Below the pieces are notes generated by a model. That model made no database searches. It worked only from the letters and a program-made list of their open reading frames with translations, and was not told the origin of the DNA. Positions 15,529 through 34,613 of a stretch of DNA of 35,048 nt are shown piece by piece (positions within the stretch are counted from its first letter, which is position 1; each line of letters opens with the position of its first letter). The position numbers and the translations under genes were made by a program. This DNA is from Plicaturopsis crispa FD-325 SS-3 (Eukaryota > Basidiomycota > Agaricomycetes > Amylocorticiales > Amylocorticiaceae): positions 1,799,342 through 1,834,389 of the forward strand of contig KN832560.1 in NCBI GenBank assembly GCA_000827205.1, read 5' to 3'.

Positions 15529-16660
15529 CTACCGTCGATTTGTAGATGACGATGCGAGCGCAGTGTCCCCAGCGCTAATGGTTAAGGAGTCTACAGTATG
15601 TCGTAACCACAACTCGTCGTGTCCAAGAGGGTGGCCGACTTCATCGCGCAGGCGTTTGCGTTTCTCCGCATCGCCGTACAGCTCCAGGACAGAGTAGCGT
15701 GAATCTTCGACTGCGCGAGGCGAGGGCATCCTCGAGTAGCGCAAGTTTCTGGAGGCTGTAGGCCAGGCAAATGTAAGTATCCAAATCATGACAACCGTTG
15801 GGAACCTTGCTTCGGTGTATCGATTATGGTCCTGTGCCAGTAGTCCACAGCTGCCTGGTATGTTCTTGAAAGTCGTTAATGCGAGGGACCCCAGGATATG
15901 TGTCGAGTGGTGCGTAATACTGAGCTCTAGGTTGCACGGTTGCATTGTGCCGAGCGCAAGGTTGCCAAATGCGCTCCAATTTCACGAGGAATTACACCGG
16001 TGTATCGTTTACTATACTGTTGTAGACCATACTAGCCTCTTTTTATCGTTTGTAGGGACATTGCGAGTTCCCGAGGGCCTTTGCTCTCGAATAAACTGCG
16101 GCGTCAGTGAAATTAGGCTACGATGACAGGATTAGTGTAGATCCCGCACTGAAATTGATGCACCTGATTGCATGGTTTCTACCGCGTTTCCGGAGTTCGT
16201 TATGGTGAGATTTGGGCGACCTGTTCCTGCGATACTTATCGAAACCAGTTCGACGAGTGTGATCCTAAGTATGCACTGGAGACACGCACAGTCGCGGAGT
16301 CGGAGTAGAAGTCGGAGTTCCATCTCCCGCGCGTCTCGATTTCTGTCCCCCGACTCTTCGCCTCCACCGCGACTTGACCGCGACTTCGTCGCGTCCATCC
16401 AGAATCCATACGTGAACCTACACTGCGCCTGTATACAAGAAGAATTGCTGCCGGTCTACGCGTATAATCGGTCCCCGAGTGGTCTCCCCATCCGCAGACC
16501 GCCTGTTTTGGCAAATTCCAAAATCGTCCACTGTTTTGAGGCTGGAGGTAGCTTTGCTCGGTCGTCGACGACAGAATCGTCCCAGAGGCGCGTAAATACC
16601 ATCCATTTTTCTCGTATAACTATCTTACGACAAGCTGTCGCGTCTGTAATCAGATAACTC
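15529..16660 (-). pseudogene. Unrecognised, probably decayed gene divergent from the F-box gene
   Basis: Minus-strand frames conserved with the left arm: near 16480-16640 (IREKWMVFTRLWDDSVV, then GRPLGDRLYA) and near 15529-15720 (AVEDSRYSVLELYGDAEKRKR, then DTALASSSTNRR and a stop). The pieces are not in one frame and no clean splice model joined them, so it is called a pseudogene with doubt. An alternative plus-strand frame of 161 codons (16172-16657) overlaps the first piece and is also partly conserved in the left arm. No family was recognised. Confidence 0.4.
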
Positions 16661-17015
16661 TGCCTTGTAGATATACACACTGCGTCCTTATCCTCAATTG
16701 GGTGGCTTCTCTCATCGTTGTACACTGTCTGACTCCGGAATACGCATAATTCGGGATAGGTTGCAGTGCGTATTCGTAGCTCCTCGGCGAGTCTAGCTTC
16801 TCTCCCTATAGCGTACGGTGCTCACCCTCAATAAGACCGTAGTGCTTCTTTACGAGCCTTGGACGACCGATCCTCATATCGTTGTGTTTTCATCCTATTC
16901 CTTCGCCTTGTGACTCCCTGTGAGCCGTCCACCTACGTGTCTTTCTCAATGACGCGTGTTGACCGTCGGTCTTTAGTCTATCCGCTCTATAGACCGGCTT
17001 CAGAATCCTCCGCAG

Positions 17016-17068
17016 GTAAGCGATCTTCGCCGAGAATCGTTGCCGTGAACCCAAATAACGCCCGATAG
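17016..17068 (+). other. Putative 5' UTR intron of the F-box gene
   Basis: CAG followed by GTAAGC at 17016 and a GATAG acceptor at 17068, seven bases before the ATG at 17076; length 53 nt, the usual size for introns in this window. The donor is also present in the decayed left-arm copy. Splicing is inferred. Confidence 0.5.
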
Positions 17069-17075
17069 GTTCACG

Positions 17076-18695
17076 ATGTCTACAGATAAACATGCAGAGG
17101 ATCTCGCTACCATCGGAGAGCTAGAATTCGAGCTGTCTCAGCTGCACGCAATGTTTGAGCGTCTGCAACAGCCGCCTCGGCCGCCACGCCAGCAATTAGA
17201 AGATGCGATGGTAAAACTACGGGTGCGCCTACTGCGGCGACGTTATCAAGTACGGAAGACCATGCGTCGCTTGCACGCCCGTTACGCGGATCACACGATG
17301 TCGTTGCCGGACGAGATTTTGGCAGAGATATTCATGCACGGTCCGCCGGAATGGTCGCTTGGGTCATTACCTTTTCAGGTCACGGTCTCTCATGTCTCGC
17401 GCCGCTGGCGTGCGGTAGCACTTCAATTTCCTCAGCTTTGGTCTCGTATACATCTGGCTGATCTGCAAGAAGCCGAAGGGCCCAAGTACCACAAAGAGCT
17501 GCTTCTCGCTCATATAGCACGCTCTGCAGAGTGCTCCCTCAGCATCGTCTGGAGGGGCCTGGTCAGAAACAATCTGGACTTCGCGAAACTCACTGCGCTG
17601 GCACATCGCTGGACATCCTTCACCGGCCATGGCCAATTGGCTCATTATGCGTATCACTTGGCTGACTGGTCCGCACCAAATCTCCGTCACTTCGCTATCA
17701 TCGACAAGAAAACCTCTCGCCATGCATCACACTCATATGTGCTTTTCGAAGACGGCCTCCCTGACTTGTCTAGTCTCGTTCTCGACGGTTTCGGTTGCTT
17801 GCGGTTCTATCAACAGAATCCCTTACGCTCTTTAAAGCATCTCTGCATCAGCGACCAGGAGCCGGACAGCAATACGCTAGAGGGATCTATTGTTGGCGTT
17901 CTAGGCATCTTGGCGACCGCTAGATCTCTGACGACGTTCAGTCTGCGCTGTGCTCTGGGCAGCAATGGTCAACTGTTTCCCTTCCCAACAACCCCCATCG
18001 ATCTACCTTTGTTAACGCACCTGAGTCTCCATATATCGGACCCGTACTGTAGCGAGCAACAGCAACATTACCTATCGCCCATCCTCATAGCGCTTACCGC
18101 GCCATCACTGGCCCATTTGACCATTCGGGAGGCGCGGTATTCGGACGTTCTTCATCTAGGTCGTACACTTCTAGACAACGATCCTGCTGGCCGGTATCCG
18201 AGTCTCCGCACGCTGTCGCTAGAGGTGTGCTTCGCGCCCCTAGCTAACTTACATCAAGACGACGATGTCCACGATCCCCGCTTCAAAGATCTCTTCAAAC
18301 TGCTGATGCTAGGGCTTCCAAGCATTCGAGACGCTACGATTATCGCGGAATACAGGATGCTACTCGTACTACTAGAGGACGCCACGCCAACGGCCGATGA
18401 TGGCTACGCAGCGCTCTGGCCCTCCTTGCAAACTCTTACAGTTGAGAATCCTTTCGGGTGGATGCGCGATCATGAAGGCATGGTACTGCACCCCTCCGCC
18501 GTGCTTCAAAGTCGCATTGCAGCTGGAAGTCGCCTCACCAATCTCACGATGAAGATGCACCATCTGTACTTCCCCGAGCACCAGAGCATCGAAGATCTGC
18601 GGCAACATGTTCACTTGGAGCTCGTCGATACGAGTACGAATGTGCGTGCATTTCACGCAATATTTGTCGATGTTCAAGGCTCGGTCCATCGCTGA
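17076..18695 (+). CDS. F-box / leucine-rich-like protein
   Basis: A single uninterrupted frame of 539 residues. The N-terminus (1-70) is a short helical segment with a proline-rich break (QQPPRPPRQQ). The F-box lies at about 76-125: SLPDEILAEIFMHGPPEW, then VSHVSRRWRAVALQFPQLW, the typical agaricomycete form. The rest has irregular leucine-rich segments (DLSSLVLDGFGCLRFY, LRSLKHLCISD, LPLLTHLSLHISD, LAHLTIREARYSD) of the kind that bind substrates. F-box proteins join Skp1 in SCF ubiquitin ligases; the substrate is unknown, and this family is greatly expanded in agaricomycetes. The gene exists as a decayed inverted copy at 885-1696. Its last ~30 codons start a threefold tandem repeat downstream (18600-20280). 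Confidence 0.88.
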   Translation: MSTDKHAEDLATIGELEFELSQLHAMFERLQQPPRPPRQQLEDAMVKLRVRLLRRRYQVRKTMRRLHARYADHTMSLPDEILAEIFMHGPPEWSLGSLPFQVTVSHVSRRWRAVALQFPQLWSRIHLADLQEAEGPKYHKELLLAHIARSAECSLSIVWRGLVRNNLDFAKLTALAHRWTSFTGHGQLAHYAYHLADWSAPNLRHFAIIDKKTSRHASHSYVLFEDGLPDLSSLVLDGFGCLRFYQQNPLRSLKHLCISDQEPDSNTLEGSIVGVLGILATARSLTTFSLRCALGSNGQLFPFPTTPIDLPLLTHLSLHISDPYCSEQQQHYLSPILIALTAPSLAHLTIREARYSDVLHLGRTLLDNDPAGRYPSLRTLSLEVCFAPLANLHQDDDVHDPRFKDLFKLLMLGLPSIRDATIIAEYRMLLVLLEDATPTADDGYAALWPSLQTLTVENPFGWMRDHEGMVLHPSAVLQSRIAAGSRLTNLTMKMHHLYFPEHQSIEDLRQHVHLELVDTSTNVRAFHAIFVDVQGSVHR

Positions 18696-19206
18696 TTGGT
18701 TTCTTTCAGTTCGAAACTGAACTCGTGCCGTCTGAGCTCTAGAGGTCGGAGACTCTAATCACCACTTAATGACGTGCGAGTCTATCTACGCATCCACGTT
18801 TGTTGCTGAGACCCTTCCTTGTCACTTCCCCGCACGAACCTGCCCCCCTTTCTCACGTCGCGCATGTCTTTCATCGTCACCGTCAAATGCCCCGACACGC
18901 TTCCTCTGTATCTCGTGCCACGGTCACTGGACTTAGATTCTCGCTCAATCTGCTCCTTCGCAACCGTACTCTCTCCTCTGCATGTTCCGCCCGTCCTCGC
19001 CGTCGGACGCTCATGCCTGGTATCTCGCGACACGGACTTTCGCGACACGGACTCCAGACCTGTAAATCCTTGGCCTTCGATACTCGCATACGAACCGCTT
19101 CCCCAACAAATACGTCCCGTTTATCTCTGTTCGCGCATGTTTTTCTCGCCGATTTCTGCAGCCTGTTTTTCTTTTTTGTGATACACGGACACTGGCCCTG
19201 TACTGG
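18600..19206 (+). repeat. Tandem repeat unit 1 (F-box 3' end plus downstream)
   Basis: Starts inside the F-box coding region at the bases encoding QHVHLELVDTS and runs through the stop and about 500 bp of downstream sequence. Shared downstream words include the block after CTCGTGCCGTCTGA, a CTAGAGGTCGGAGAC motif and a TCTCGCTCAATCTGCT block. About 605 bp, the longest of the three units. Confidence 0.85.
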
Positions 19207-19742
19207 TAATTCGGCAACATGTTCACTTAGAGCTCGTCGATACGAGTACTCAAGTGCGTGCATTTCACGCAATATTTGTCGATGTCCAAGGCTCGATCCA
19301 TCGCTGACTGGTTTCTTTCAGTTCAAAACTGAACTCGTGCCGTCTGATCCCTAGAGGTCGGAGACGCTCATCACCACTCAATAACGTGCGAACCTGCCTC
19401 CCTTTCTCACATCGCGCATGTCTTTCATCGTGCTCTCTCTGTATCTCGTGCCATGGACCCTGAACTCACATTCTCGCTCAATCTGCTCATTCGTAACCGT
19501 ACTTTCTCTGCATATTCCGCCCGTTCTTGTCCGTCCTCGCCGTCGGTCGCTCTTGCCTGGTTTCTCCCGACACGGTCTTCTGGCCTGTCAATCCTCGTTG
19601 GCCTGCAATACTCGCATACGGACCGCTTCCCCACGAACCTGTCGCCTTTTTCTCCCTTCGCGCATGTTTCTCTCGCCGAATTTTGCAGCCTATTTTCCCT
19701 TTTCGTGGTGAACACGGACACTGGACTTGTACTCGTGTTCAA
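19207..19742 (+). repeat. Tandem repeat unit 2
   Basis: Repeats unit 1 from the same coding point. The copied gene end stays readable (HVHLELVDTSTQVRAFHAIF, then DVQGSIHR and a stop), followed by the same downstream words in the same order. About 536 bp, shorter than unit 1 through internal gaps. Confidence 0.85.
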
Positions 19743-20280
19743 TTAGAGCTCGTCGATACGGGTACGAGAGTGCGTGCATTTCAGGTAATATTTATCGATG
19801 TCCAAGGCTCGGTCCATCGCTGACTGTTTTCTTTTAGCACGAAACTGATCTCGTGCCGTCTGAGCCCTAGAGGTCGGAGACGCTAATCATCACTCAACAA
19901 CGTGCGAGTCTGTATACGCATCCCTCATCCCTTCCACCGCCAATTGCCCCGACCTGCTTCCCTCGTATCTCGTGCCATGGACACTGTACTCGCATTCTCG
20001 CTCAATCTGCTCTTTCGCAACCGTACTTTCTCCTCTGCATATTCCGCCAGTTGTTGTCCCGTCCTCGCCGTCGGTTGCTCCCGCCTGATTTCTTGAGCCC
20101 CGGACATCGGACCTGTAGTTTATGCATGGCCTGCAATACTCGCATACGAACCGCTTCCCCAGGAATCAATCTGTCGCCTTTTTTGCTCTTCGCGCATGCT
20201 TTTCTCGTCGATTTCTGTAGCGTTTTCTCTTTTCGCGGTGACACGGACATTGTACCTGTAATACCTGCCTAGCCTGTAGA
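19743..20280 (+). repeat. Tandem repeat unit 3
   Basis: The third copy. The gene-end piece reads LELVDTGTRVRAFQVIFIDV and ends in QGSVHR and a stop. The downstream words continue to about 20270, where the repetition ends. It is more diverged than unit 2 in the terminal part. Confidence 0.8.
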
Positions 20281-20484: not shown

Positions 20485-21895
20485 ATGTCTTCAAACTCGC
20501 AACAAACAGACCCCCACGCTCTCCCCCCACCGTCAACCCTCACCTTGCCTCACCACGGACACTCCACCTGGAACTTCCTCCTCCGCGCCGAGCAACGCGC
20601 TTTAAATCAGCCGTCGACGTCGACGTCGGCGATATACAACACGGACCTGGTAGCAGTCCGCGTACTGGGACACCTCCTCGCGGATTTCTGGGGGCATAGC
20701 GGTCAACACGCGTTCTTCCTGAGCGCGTATGAGGGTCTCGTGGAAGCTATCGACGGGTGCCGTGTCGTTGAGGATGAGCTGCGTCGGCAGTATGAGTACC
20801 TCCTCGACCTTGGGATCCTTTATAGGAATCGGATCATGGGCATTTGTGCGTACACGGATCCCGCGATACTTGAGCGAAGACTTACTGACGACTTCGCAGT
20901 CCGTCCGTATAACGAATGGGCACCTCTGCCCGGGACCCCCAGGCCCGAATCTCCCCCGTCCTTCGCCGGTACTCTGAAAGACATCAACACCGTCTCCAAG
21001 ACAAAGTCGGAAGCGAAAACCAAGGCAAGTGCGCGCGCAGCATTTCTCGTCATCAGTGTACTGTTCTCATTTTGAGCTCTAGGCATTGGTCAGAGACGGC
21101 TATAGATGCATGATCTGCGGCGTGTTCGACGTCCATACGCTGGAATCGGACCGAGAACTCATGAAGAGAGCGAGGGCCGGCACCCTCAAAGTGAAGGCTG
21201 GACACACGCAGTGTGTTCACCTTTTCCCAGAGCCAGTGCCGCCGCAGGATGGGGAAGAGGTATGTTCCGTTCTGTTCCGCCTTGTGTTGTTACCCTGTAG
21301 GTGTTGTGTTGCTGATATCGCTCGAAGTCTGTAGAAGACGGGACAGCTGCTTATGAGATACTGAGATCGTTTGGCTTAGGGGACTTCGCCGACGAACTCG
21401 AGAACGGCCAGGGAGTCCATGATCTCCGCAATGTGATGACCATGTCCATGGTTCTGCGCACGCAATTCGATGAACATAATTTCTGGCTCGAGGAAGTCCC
21501 AGGACAGGTGAGCATTCTTCCTCCAAGCCGCCACAATCGCGTTATTGACAAGTTCTTTCCATTAGCCCCATACCTACGACATACACGCCCCGCCCCACTC
21601 CATGATCCCTTACCTCGTCGAACTGCAGGGCATCCGCCGGGTAACCTTCGCGCTCTCGCAGGACGTCATCGACGCAGTGGCCCCAGGTGGCCCGCTGCCT
21701 CCACTACCCGACCCCCGCCTCATCGCCGTGCGCGCCTCGTGTGCACGCGTCGCTCGGGCGTCGGGCGCTGTTCAGCAGATGAAGCAGGTTTTAAGTGATA
21801 TGGAGGATAGTACGGTTTTGGCGGGAGATGGGAGTGCAGCTGAGGTTCTTGCTGCTCGGCTTAGCTACGCGTCTATCGTTCCGACTGGAGCGTAG
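20485..21895 (+). CDS. HNH-nuclease-domain protein, paralogue 1
   Basis: Five exons, 20485-20845, 20900-21024, 21083-21259, 21328-21507 and 21566-21895, give 390 residues. The HNH_2-like core opens at about residue 163 with ALVRDGYRCMICGVFD. It continues with VHLFPE (first His present) and ends with NVMTMSMVLRTQFDEHNFWL. There the usual His before x2-FD (LHxxFD in paralogue 2) is Arg. The C-terminus (PHTYDIHAPPHSM..., then PLPPLPDPRLIAVRASCARV) matches the agaricomycete HNH family layout. Intron 2 (21025-21082) is GC-AG with the strong donor AAG|GCAAGT. Intron 1 lies at the same place as in paralogue 2; reading through it also stays open, so it is less certain. The family role is unknown; a DNA-cutting role would need the His that is missing here. 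Confidence 0.82.
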
Positions 21896-22142
21896 GCGCA
21901 GCAGGGTGTAGACCTGCAGCGGTTTGAACGCTTTCGGACACAAGCTATTTGTACAGTATACTCTACATACTAGTGCTATGTACTACTTCTAACTTACTTA
22001 CGATTCAATTTATGGACGTCATAATCTTTACGGCCTCGAGTTGGAGGCGCGACCCAGTGCATGTGCATATGCATGTGACTTCGGACACGAAAAAAAAACC
22101 GCGTCCGAGTCCGCGCGTCGAGAAACTGACTCTCAACGATCC
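21896..22142. promoter_or_regulatory. Duplicated upstream region of HNH paralogue 2
   Basis: The 80 bp before the ATG of paralogue 2 (22060-22142) resemble those before paralogue 1 (20405-20484): both have a GCATGTGACT word, a GACACGAAAAAA run and a CGCGCGTCGAGA word. The duplication therefore carried at least part of the promoter. Confidence 0.65.
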
Positions 22143-23525
22143 ATGTCTTCAAACCTCCAACAACCCGATCCACACGCTCTACCCTCTCTGCACTCCCTCG
22201 GCTTAGACCCCCACGGACAAACCGCCTGGCACATTCTCCTCAGTGCAGAGAAGAGCGCTTTGGCAAATCAACCCTCTCGGCGGAAGTACAACAGCGATCT
22301 TATAGGCGTTCGCGTATTGGGATGGCTCCTCAAGGACTTGTGGGATCACAGCCAGCAGCTTCCGTTCTGCTTGACCGCGTACGAGGGTCTTGTCGGAGAT
22401 ATCAACAGATGCGGTGTCGAGGACGGGGAACGACATCGGGAAATTTTCGACGTTGGGATATCGTACAGGAATGCTCTTATGAGCGTTTGTGAGTAGAACC
22501 CTCCGAATGGCCCGTAAATCAAATACTTACCGCGCGGCAGACCGTCCCCCTCCAGAAACCACGCCCGCGCCCTTCACCCACCGCTCTGACCCGTCCTTCA
22601 CCCAGGTACGAAAGCAGGCCCTGAGAGAAATGGATGTCGTCTCTGAGACGTATCCCGAAGCGACGATGAAGGCGAGTGCGCTTCATATTCAACCTTATCT
22701 CTGCTCGTCTCATTCTCTAAATAGGCGTTGATCAGAGACGGCTATCGATGCATGCTCTCCGGCGCGTTCGACTTGCCGTCGTGTAGGGCGGACGCAGACA
22801 TAGCAGATGCAGCAAGGGCAACATCTGCCGGCCCTCCCAAGTTCGTCCTGACACAGGGTGCCTACCTCTTCTCGGAGTCCGCGCAGGACACGGGTCCCAA
22901 GGTATGTTCGTTCTGCCTTGTCATTTTCCGTCTCGCTAATGCCGTTTCACAGCCCCCCGAATACACAGGATCTGCGTTTGCCATACTCCGCAAATTCGGC
23001 CTGGGAGACGTCGCTACCAACCTCATGAGCGGCCAGGGAGTCAATGATCTTTCCAACGTCATGACCCTGTCCACGTACCTACACGCGGAATTCGATGAAT
23101 TCGAAATATGGCTCGAAGAGGTCCCGGGCCAGGTACGCTTTCCGCACTCATCCATCCCATTGCCTCAATAATCGCGTTACTGATTCGCTTTCCGCTAGCC
23201 CCACACGTACGACCTCTGCGCGCCGCCGCGCTCCCTAGTCTTTAACCTCATCGAACTTCAAGGGGGCGCTCGTCGGGTGACGTTCGCGGTCTCGCAAGAA
23301 GTGATCGACGCGGTCTCGCAAGACGTGGTCGACGCGGGTGAACCGACGCCTCCGCTACCCGACCCCCGCCTCCTCGCCATACGCGCTGTGTGCGCACGCG
23401 TTGCTCATGCCTCGGGCGCTGTGGAGCAGATGAGACAGCTCTTGCGAGATGTGGAGGATAGTACGGTGTTGGCGAGTGATGGGAGTACGGCTGAGATTTC
23501 AGCGGCTCGGCTTAGCTTTGCTTAG
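22143..23525 (+). CDS. HNH-nuclease-domain protein, paralogue 2
   Basis: Five exons, 22143-22488, 22541-22671, 22725-22901, 22953-23132 and 23199-23525, give 386 residues. Exons 3 and 4 have exactly the lengths of paralogue 1 (177 and 180 nt), and all introns are in the same phases. The core opens with ALIRDGYRCMLSGAFD. At the place of the first HNH His (HLFPE in paralogue 1) it has YLFSES. The last His is kept (NVMTLSTYLHAEFDEFEIWL). Intron 2 (22672-22724) is again GC-AG, donor AAG|GCGAGT. The second Cys of paralogue 1's CMIC is Ser here. A gene finder that refuses GC donors would break both genes at this point. The product is probably nuclease-dead or altered, unless another residue serves. 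Confidence 0.82.
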
Positions 23526-33765: not shown

Positions 33766-34110
33766 CTAGTAGGCGTACAATCAGTACACGGACCCTGAGC
33801 ATATGTCAGCCGCTGCAGCTACTGCGATCCTCAAAAAGTTCAAAGAATAGGGATTTTAAGTCATCAATTTTCCTCGCATAATTCAGGGATTTTGTCTCTC
33901 AGCAGGCCAGGGTTCGAGTCCCACTCTCGGATTTACTTTATTATGTTGTGGGCGATGCAGTCTCAAATTTTTTTATCAATGTACATGGATTCCAGATTCG
34001 CTATAGCCTTTGTCACCTAAACTCAAAACTCAAAACTGTATCTCGAGGTTCTTCGACACTTCTGATCTTAGCTTCTCATATAGAATACAAAGCTGTATTC
34101 CCTGCAGACG

Positions 34111-34311
34111 ATGGATCTTCCATTCCACGCTAACCATGGATCCTGCATTCCACGCTGACCATGGATCCTGCATTCCCCGTGCACCATGGGTTCTACAATC
34201 TGTGCAAATAATGGATTTTCCCTTCCCCTTGAAATAATGGATCCTACATTCCCTGCAAACATTGGATCCTGCATTCCACACTGGTTATGGATCCTACATT
34301 CCTTGATTAAC
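34111..34311. repeat. 25-bp minisatellite, eight units
   Basis: Units begin ATGGATCCTRCATTCC and recur at 34111, 34136, 34161, 34186, 34211, 34237, 34262 and 34287, a period of 25 bp with one 26-bp unit. Most units keep GGATCC. Units differ by several substitutions, so the array is not recent. It is non-coding; the open frames through it are by-products. Confidence 0.9.
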
Positions 34312-34598
34312 ATCTATGCATGCCAACTTTGGACTGATCATAGATTCCATAAGATAACAAAGGATCCTAACTTCCCGTCAAAATTGATACTATATGATCT
34401 CTATTTCGCTGTCGGCGTGCATAGATTTTTGTAAGTGCTGAATATATTTTGCTGCTCATATACTTGTAGTGCCTTGTGAGTCGTAGAGCTTCATATACTG
34501 TCGTCCATTCAGCATTGTTGTGTTGTCGTGTATACACATGCACATATTTAACAGCTTCTCTACGCCAAGCCTGCAGGAAACCGGTACAATTGCTGCTT

Positions 34599-34613
34599 TA
34601 TTTAGGGTTAGGG
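34599..34613 (+). repeat. Short telomere-like motif (TTAGGGTTAGGG)
   Basis: Two perfect TTAGGG units preceded by TTTA and followed by TGG. No gene start was recognised close by, unlike the copy at 13531. It may be an interstitial telomeric scar or chance. Confidence 0.6.

Follow-up and report, generated by a model that had tools for sequence, protein, structure and literature searches.

Two neighbouring genes of Plicaturopsis crispa FD-325 SS-3, designated HNH1 and HNH2, are read as retained HNH_2-like paralogues that are probably impaired in catalysis (pseudonucleases) and that may serve a non-catalytic role, a reading drawn from sequence comparison and given a probability of roughly 0.57. 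In a family alignment from the same genome, the motif states were H-N-R for HNH1 and Y-N-H for HNH2, and both frames have stayed open.

Gene models and motif residues

The window, i.e. the whole stretch of DNA analysed, corresponds to the terminal 35,048 bases of contig C7 (1,834,389 bases) of a 33.2 Mb assembly in 49 contigs. HNH1 and HNH2 lie in tandem, both on the + strand, and HNH2 ends 11.5 kb from the contig end (Table 1). Each gene carries four introns, the positions of which match between the two. The first intron of HNH1 (54 bases) is in frame and the unspliced reading is also open; its splicing is supported because HNH2 has a matching intron. The acceptor of the third HNH1 intron (ending CGAAG, at 21327) is unusual and was the sole frame-keeping acceptor found. 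In exon 5 of HNH2, a tandem duplication of a 24-base unit was observed (2.2 copies, 23285-23337), at which the alignment has extra HNH2 residues.

Table 1 Features of the HNH1/HNH2 locus (positions in the window)
Feature	Position	Strand	Basis or remark
Upstream element of HNH1, 24 nt, contains CACGAAAAA	20408-20431	+	54-77 bp before the HNH1 ATG
HNH1 gene, 390 aa	20485-21895	+	5 exons, stop included, spliced by shared sites
HNH1 exons	20485-20845, 20900-21024, 21083-21259, 21328-21507, 21566-21895	+	
HNH1 second intron, GC-AG	21025-21082	+	
HNH1 first His kept, His208, motif QCVHLFPE	21218-21220	+	alignment; general-base column
HNH1 Asn of HNH kept	21430-21432	+	alignment
HNH1 last His replaced by Arg265 (CGC), motif VLRTQFD	21457-21459	+	alignment
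HNH1 Asp, four residues past the last-His column	21469-21471	+	motif layout
Upstream element of HNH2, 24 nt, contains CACGAAAAA	22071-22094	+	49-72 bp before the HNH2 ATG
HNH2 gene, 386 aa	22143-23525	+	5 exons, stop included, spliced by shared sites
HNH2 exons	22143-22488, 22541-22671, 22725-22901, 22953-23132, 23199-23525	+	
HNH2 second intron, GC-AG	22672-22724	+	counterpart of the HNH1 GC-AG intron
HNH2 first His replaced by Tyr206 (TAC), motif QGAYLFSES	22863-22865	+	alignment
HNH2 Asn of HNH kept	23055-23057	+	alignment
HNH2 last His kept, His262, motif YLHAEFD	23082-23084	+	alignment; metal-ligand column
HNH2 Asp, four residues past the last-His column	23094-23096	+	motif layout

Motif codon positions were counted by hand from the sequence. 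Compared with a catalytic HNH motif, the first His (general base) is present in HNH1 and absent from HNH2, the last His/Asn/Lys (metal site) is present in HNH2 (His262) and absent from HNH1 (Arg265), and the middle Asn is present in both. The codons CGC of Arg265 and TAC of Tyr206 are each one transition from CAC. AlphaFold2 was run on a 136-aa stretch of HNH2 (22725-23132) with a 3-row alignment, the input rows being the contiguous HNH2 stretch and two HNH1 exon peptides; the mean pLDDT was 39.2, too low for the model to be relied on, with 17 of the 136 residues being intron-coded.

Relatives in the genome and history of the pair

All family comparisons were made within this one fungal genome. 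Further copies were collected by genome searches with HNH1, HNH2, three relatives and the Pfam family, so that the counts are lower bounds: copies were found on contigs C13, C2 (three), C4, C8 and C14 (four, with no more than a C-terminal exon recovered for one of them). Exon-by-exon matches tie the pair to the copies on C13, C2 and C4, and a C2 copy to that on C8. In a nine-member alignment, the two His columns of the pair are His and His (H/H) in six of the seven other members; the remaining one, C14:755k, has Tyr and Cys there, i.e. both His are lost, and the middle Asn is invariant (9/9). When C14:753k and the last-His exon of C2:87k were added to the nine aligned members, 8 of 10 readable members had His in the first-His column, the exceptions being HNH2 and C14:755k with Tyr, and 9 of 11 had it in the last-His column, the exceptions being HNH1 (Arg) and C14:755k (Cys). 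For these counts, the last His of C14:753k was taken from a frame that is shifted, and both columns of C14:750k as well as the first-His exon of C2:87k (locus largely N) were left out as unreadable. The counts do not come from independent members, since two of the C2 copies are 98% identical. H/H members with each piece in one frame are those on C2 (two), C4 and C13 (pieces without second exons). At the fourth residue past the last-His column, Asp occurs in HNH1, HNH2 and the C13, C4 and C14:734k copies, Glu in two C2 copies and Ser in the C8 copy.

The preliminary description of tandem HNH paralogues with full coding frames and splicing was borne out (390 and 386 aa, introns matching), and spliced translation and alignment confirmed that the first paralogue has His at the first and Arg at the last position and the second Tyr and His, respectively. 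Its assignment of these positions to the catalytic histidines agrees with the H/H state of the same columns in six of seven other members. Its contrary case, that the positions are non-catalytic or variable in active members, did not emerge as far as an alignment can show, six other members being H/H and C14:755k Y/C.

The related copies on C14 form a cluster of four at 734-755 kb. C14:734k has a TGA directly after FDRF of the HNH motif, C14:753k has a frame break, and of C14:750k only a C-terminal exon was recovered; C14:755k has an open frame in the pieces read despite the loss of both His. The C8 relative (C8:45 kb, L024) keeps both His, shows a frame change in its last exon (2587-2593) and has four residues missing after RCV. 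Loss of predicted catalytic residues with open frames was seen in two branches of the family, namely the pair and C14:755k.

Both full proteins were searched against Pfam at E values up to 1, and HNH_2 (PF13391) was the sole family matched, with 17.9 bits for HNH1 and 19.6 bits for HNH2, both below the curated cut-off of 21; no SRA domain was found in either protein in the same search. Partial peptides of relatives scored 35.0 (C2) and 33.2 (C4), above the cut-off, and 16.6 (C13, H/H), below it. Since an H/H member also falls below the cut-off, the weak scores of the pair do not stem from the lost His alone, and its link to HNH_2 is also given by homology to the members above the cut-off (C2, C4). 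The H/H members resemble HNH_2 in having a small residue-His-Ile, Asn and His, whereas HNH1 and HNH2 differ from it in score and in each lacking one catalytic His. Sequence searches of the PDB gave no HNH enzyme among the matches listed, tblastn against plasmids gave one weak Vibrio match only (E 0.7, 32% of the query), and no relative was confirmed by profile scans of viral contigs (with a single C2 protein) or of genome contigs (with four H/H rows). In the literature, searched in part and by title or start of abstract, fungal HNH_2 proteins of this kind were not described; PF13391 is named once in the available part of one fungal genomics paper (PMC6525431).

In the trees, which took in the C8 C-terminal peptide joined across its frame change, HNH1 and HNH2 were sisters with a support of 100/99, or 100/100 with both His columns masked, and with branch lengths of 0.45 and 0.28, respectively. 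Judged by these comparisons, the pair arose by an old tandem duplication within a small family of HNH_2-like genes. A minimum of two changes at each His column is required by parsimony, and loss of a different His in each copy after duplication is the simplest history because the other branches are mostly H/H; by parsimony, the His losses would therefore postdate the duplication.

A member lies within 60 kb of a contig end in five of the six contigs with members (chance 1e-5, or 8e-5 at 90 kb), a statistic based on the nearest member per contig, with a threshold set post hoc and with contig ends that are not shown to be telomeres. The best reading is an HNH_2-like family of fast turnover that is located mostly near contig ends. 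Several repeats were observed in the window. Imperfect direct repeats with a spacing of 516-612 bases (18600-20165) begin within the terminal part of an F-box gene and extend towards HNH1. The arms of an inverted repeat (952-2146 and 16565-17994) share six stretches that are 80-92% complementary, and the right arm enters the F-box gene (17076-18695; F-box-like, E 2.9e-8); because of this overlap, the left arm looks like an inverted partial copy. A 25-base minisatellite (34075-34327) is located near the contig end, and two consecutive TTAGGG units are present at 34602, with no telomere array closing the contig.

Retention of the frames and the shared upstream element

Pairwise comparison of HNH1 and HNH2 gave a dN/dS of 0.41 by NG86 (bootstrap 0.31-0.56, 200 samples) and of 0.34-0.44 by three other methods, values which, being pairwise, allow for one branch having been unconstrained part of the time; dS was 0.79-0.96, with 0 stops in either frame. 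The pair is taken to be retained because dN/dS is about 0.4 and stops are absent at such a dS. By region (NG86), dN/dS was 0.43 for the N-terminal part, 0.46 for the HNH core (bootstrap 0.27-0.72) and 0.28 for the C-terminal exon. Neutral simulation at 0.44 changes per site yielded about 10 stops per copy and 0 stop-free runs out of 500 per gene; when the divergence was lowered to 0.1 changes per site, stops were absent from about 5% of the runs. Set against the zero stops observed, a long neutral past is therefore excluded for each frame and a short recent one is possible.

Other members of the family look broken (C14:734k, C14:753k, the partial C14:750k and the frame change on C8), and these copies, together with the position of members within 60 kb of the end in 5/6 contigs, would suit a decay still under way, in which HNH1 and HNH2, as members of a birth-and-death family close to contig ends, are ageing and without lasting function. 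For the pair itself such a decay is considered doubtful, as it is opposed by the 0 stops at a dS of 0.8-0.96, by the dN/dS of about 0.4 and by an upstream element that is identical at 22/24 positions.

Between HNH1 and HNH2, 59/117 residues of the HNH core and 73/102 of the C-terminal exon are identical. Set beside three H/H pairs whose C-terminal peptides are contiguous, the core of HNH1 and HNH2 fares relatively worse (z 1.34, 3.55 and 3.43), these comparisons being few and overlapping in members, and the z of 1.34 being weak; three further comparisons, with the C8 copy (z 3.19, 1.04 and 2.85), were discounted because its C-terminal peptide had been pieced together over a frame change. In sets of columns on which three H/H members agree, the H/H member left out of the set keeps 21/21, 21/27, 21/29 and 21/27 residues, HNH1 18/21, 19/27, 20/29 and 20/27, and HNH2 17/21, 18/27, 18/29 and 20/27. 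Apart from the His, the core is therefore eroded only slightly more than in H/H members.

Exact matches to GCATGTGACTNNNGACACGAAAAA were found in a genome search only in the two upstream elements of HNH1 and HNH2. The 100 bases 5' of each ATG align at 64/76 positions (z 12.8 vs. shuffles), and the next 100 bases give a z of 0.1. The identity of the element has a chance probability of 0.0002-0.002 at a neutral divergence of 0.81-0.96 (synonymous level; 77 places allowed for), and of 0.03 if neutral divergence is only 0.6. In the intron alignments, z was 9.1 for intron 4 and -0.7, 2.6 and 2.5 for introns 1-3; as intron 4 also aligns well, local conservation is not limited to the upstream region. 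The common element suggests that HNH1 and HNH2 may still be co-regulated. It contains CACGAAA, the Swi4/Swi6 box of yeast. CACGAAA or CGCGAAA occurs within 250 bp upstream of four of nine family starts (HNH1, HNH2, one C2 copy and C4), the background rate being 0.137 per 250 bp (one upstream stretch comprised 197 bases), an excess that is not clearly above chance because the HNH1 and HNH2 copies are common by descent. A putative G1/S-box role of CACGAAA is regarded as a lead. Scans for sigma-70 promoters and terminators are irrelevant to a fungus.

Known HNH enzymes and the function of the pair

In the available parts of the account of phage GVE2 HNHE, the role of general base is assigned to the first His and the positioning of the strands to the Asn, and a contribution to metal binding is ascribed to the third residue (His, Lys or Asn), at a position called variable. 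Its abstract gives nicking losses upon change to Ala of 94% (H93A), 60% (N109A) and 83% (H118A), whereas in its discussion N109A and H118A keep about 50-80% activity. For TagI, a modification-dependent restriction endonuclease of the SRA-HNH type, the accessible text (PMC6212794) describes the first His as activating water and the last His as binding the metal, with an Asn that is needed though without a catalytic role, and terms all three residues essential; base, Asn and metal His all lie inside one beta-beta-alpha motif. An Ala directly precedes the first His of TagI, and Asp258 is a metal ligand, numbered four after His254 and placed three downstream in the text (PMC6212794).

The fungal proteins resemble TagI, as far as its text was available, in the small residue (Ala, Cys or Ser) before the first His of the H/H members and in the Asp of the pair, which occupies the place of Asp258 by residue numbers; they differ from it in the Glu of two C2 copies and the Ser of C8 at that place, and HNH1 and HNH2 in the absence of an SRA domain by Pfam. 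Because the PDB searches gave no HNH enzyme, the likeness to TagI is confined to motif layout. By analogy, residue changes equivalent to those of the pair cripple GVE2 HNHE and TagI according to these partial sources, which would support an impaired pair: without the metal-binding His in HNH1 and without the general base in HNH2, each protein would be a nuclease of little or no activity.

Some activity may persist in HNH1 because of the values in the GVE2 discussion, where H118A keeps much of its activity, and because the third position is called variable. HNH1 combines base and Asn with an Asp where TagI has a metal ligand shortly past the last His, and it might thus bind metal without the last His, leaving at least one active nuclease in the pair. 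This appears improbable, given that Arg is absent among the third residues named in these partial sources (His, Lys, Asn), that the GVE2 abstract reports an 83% loss for H118A, that the last His of TagI is termed essential, and that the last-His column is His in 9/11 members.

An active site shared between HNH1 and HNH2 is unlikely. Cooperation as a heteromer, in which one protein contributes the general base and its partner the metal His through a swapped helix or a shared site, would draw on the complementary losses, the tandem arrangement, the common upstream element and, from the TagI abstract, a DNA site built jointly by two nuclease domains. Given one loss per copy, a complementary outcome has by simple arithmetic a probability of 1/2, and the pattern alone is therefore no evidence of cooperation; C14:755k has lost both His, and in the available TagI text base, Asn and metal His fall within one motif, so that such a heteromer is very unlikely. 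Less credible still is its strictest form, an obligate split nuclease in which a single swapped heteromer site combines the base from HNH1 with the metal His from HNH2, and which, if true, would cut only when both co-regulated genes are expressed, neither protein cutting alone.

Of the three readings offered in the preliminary description, the non-catalytic role fits best, given the open frames, the dN/dS of about 0.4 and the more diverged HNH core; parallel loss holds as the history of the pair, with at least two changes per His column; and for the cooperating pair nothing positive was obtained beyond the tandem position and the common upstream element, with complementarity at 1/2.

In the preferred reading of retained, impaired paralogues, both proteins would be maintained for a function other than catalysis, most likely the binding of DNA or of a partner, possibly via the N-terminal region and the better conserved C-terminal exon, and HNH1 and HNH2 could perhaps damp or guide active paralogues elsewhere in the genome. 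Repeated active-site loss in fungal nucleases has a precedent in Dis3L2/Ssd1, where the available text (PMC8097288) reports repeated independent loss, sometimes after gene duplication, with non-nuclease domains kept; the likeness is that of a fungal nuclease family with repeated active-site loss, whereas Dis3L2/Ssd1 belongs to a separate nuclease family, RNase II. The pair illustrates, in two genes, how catalysis may be lost from a fungal nuclease family whose genes are kept, and the H/H copies of this genome serve as controls.
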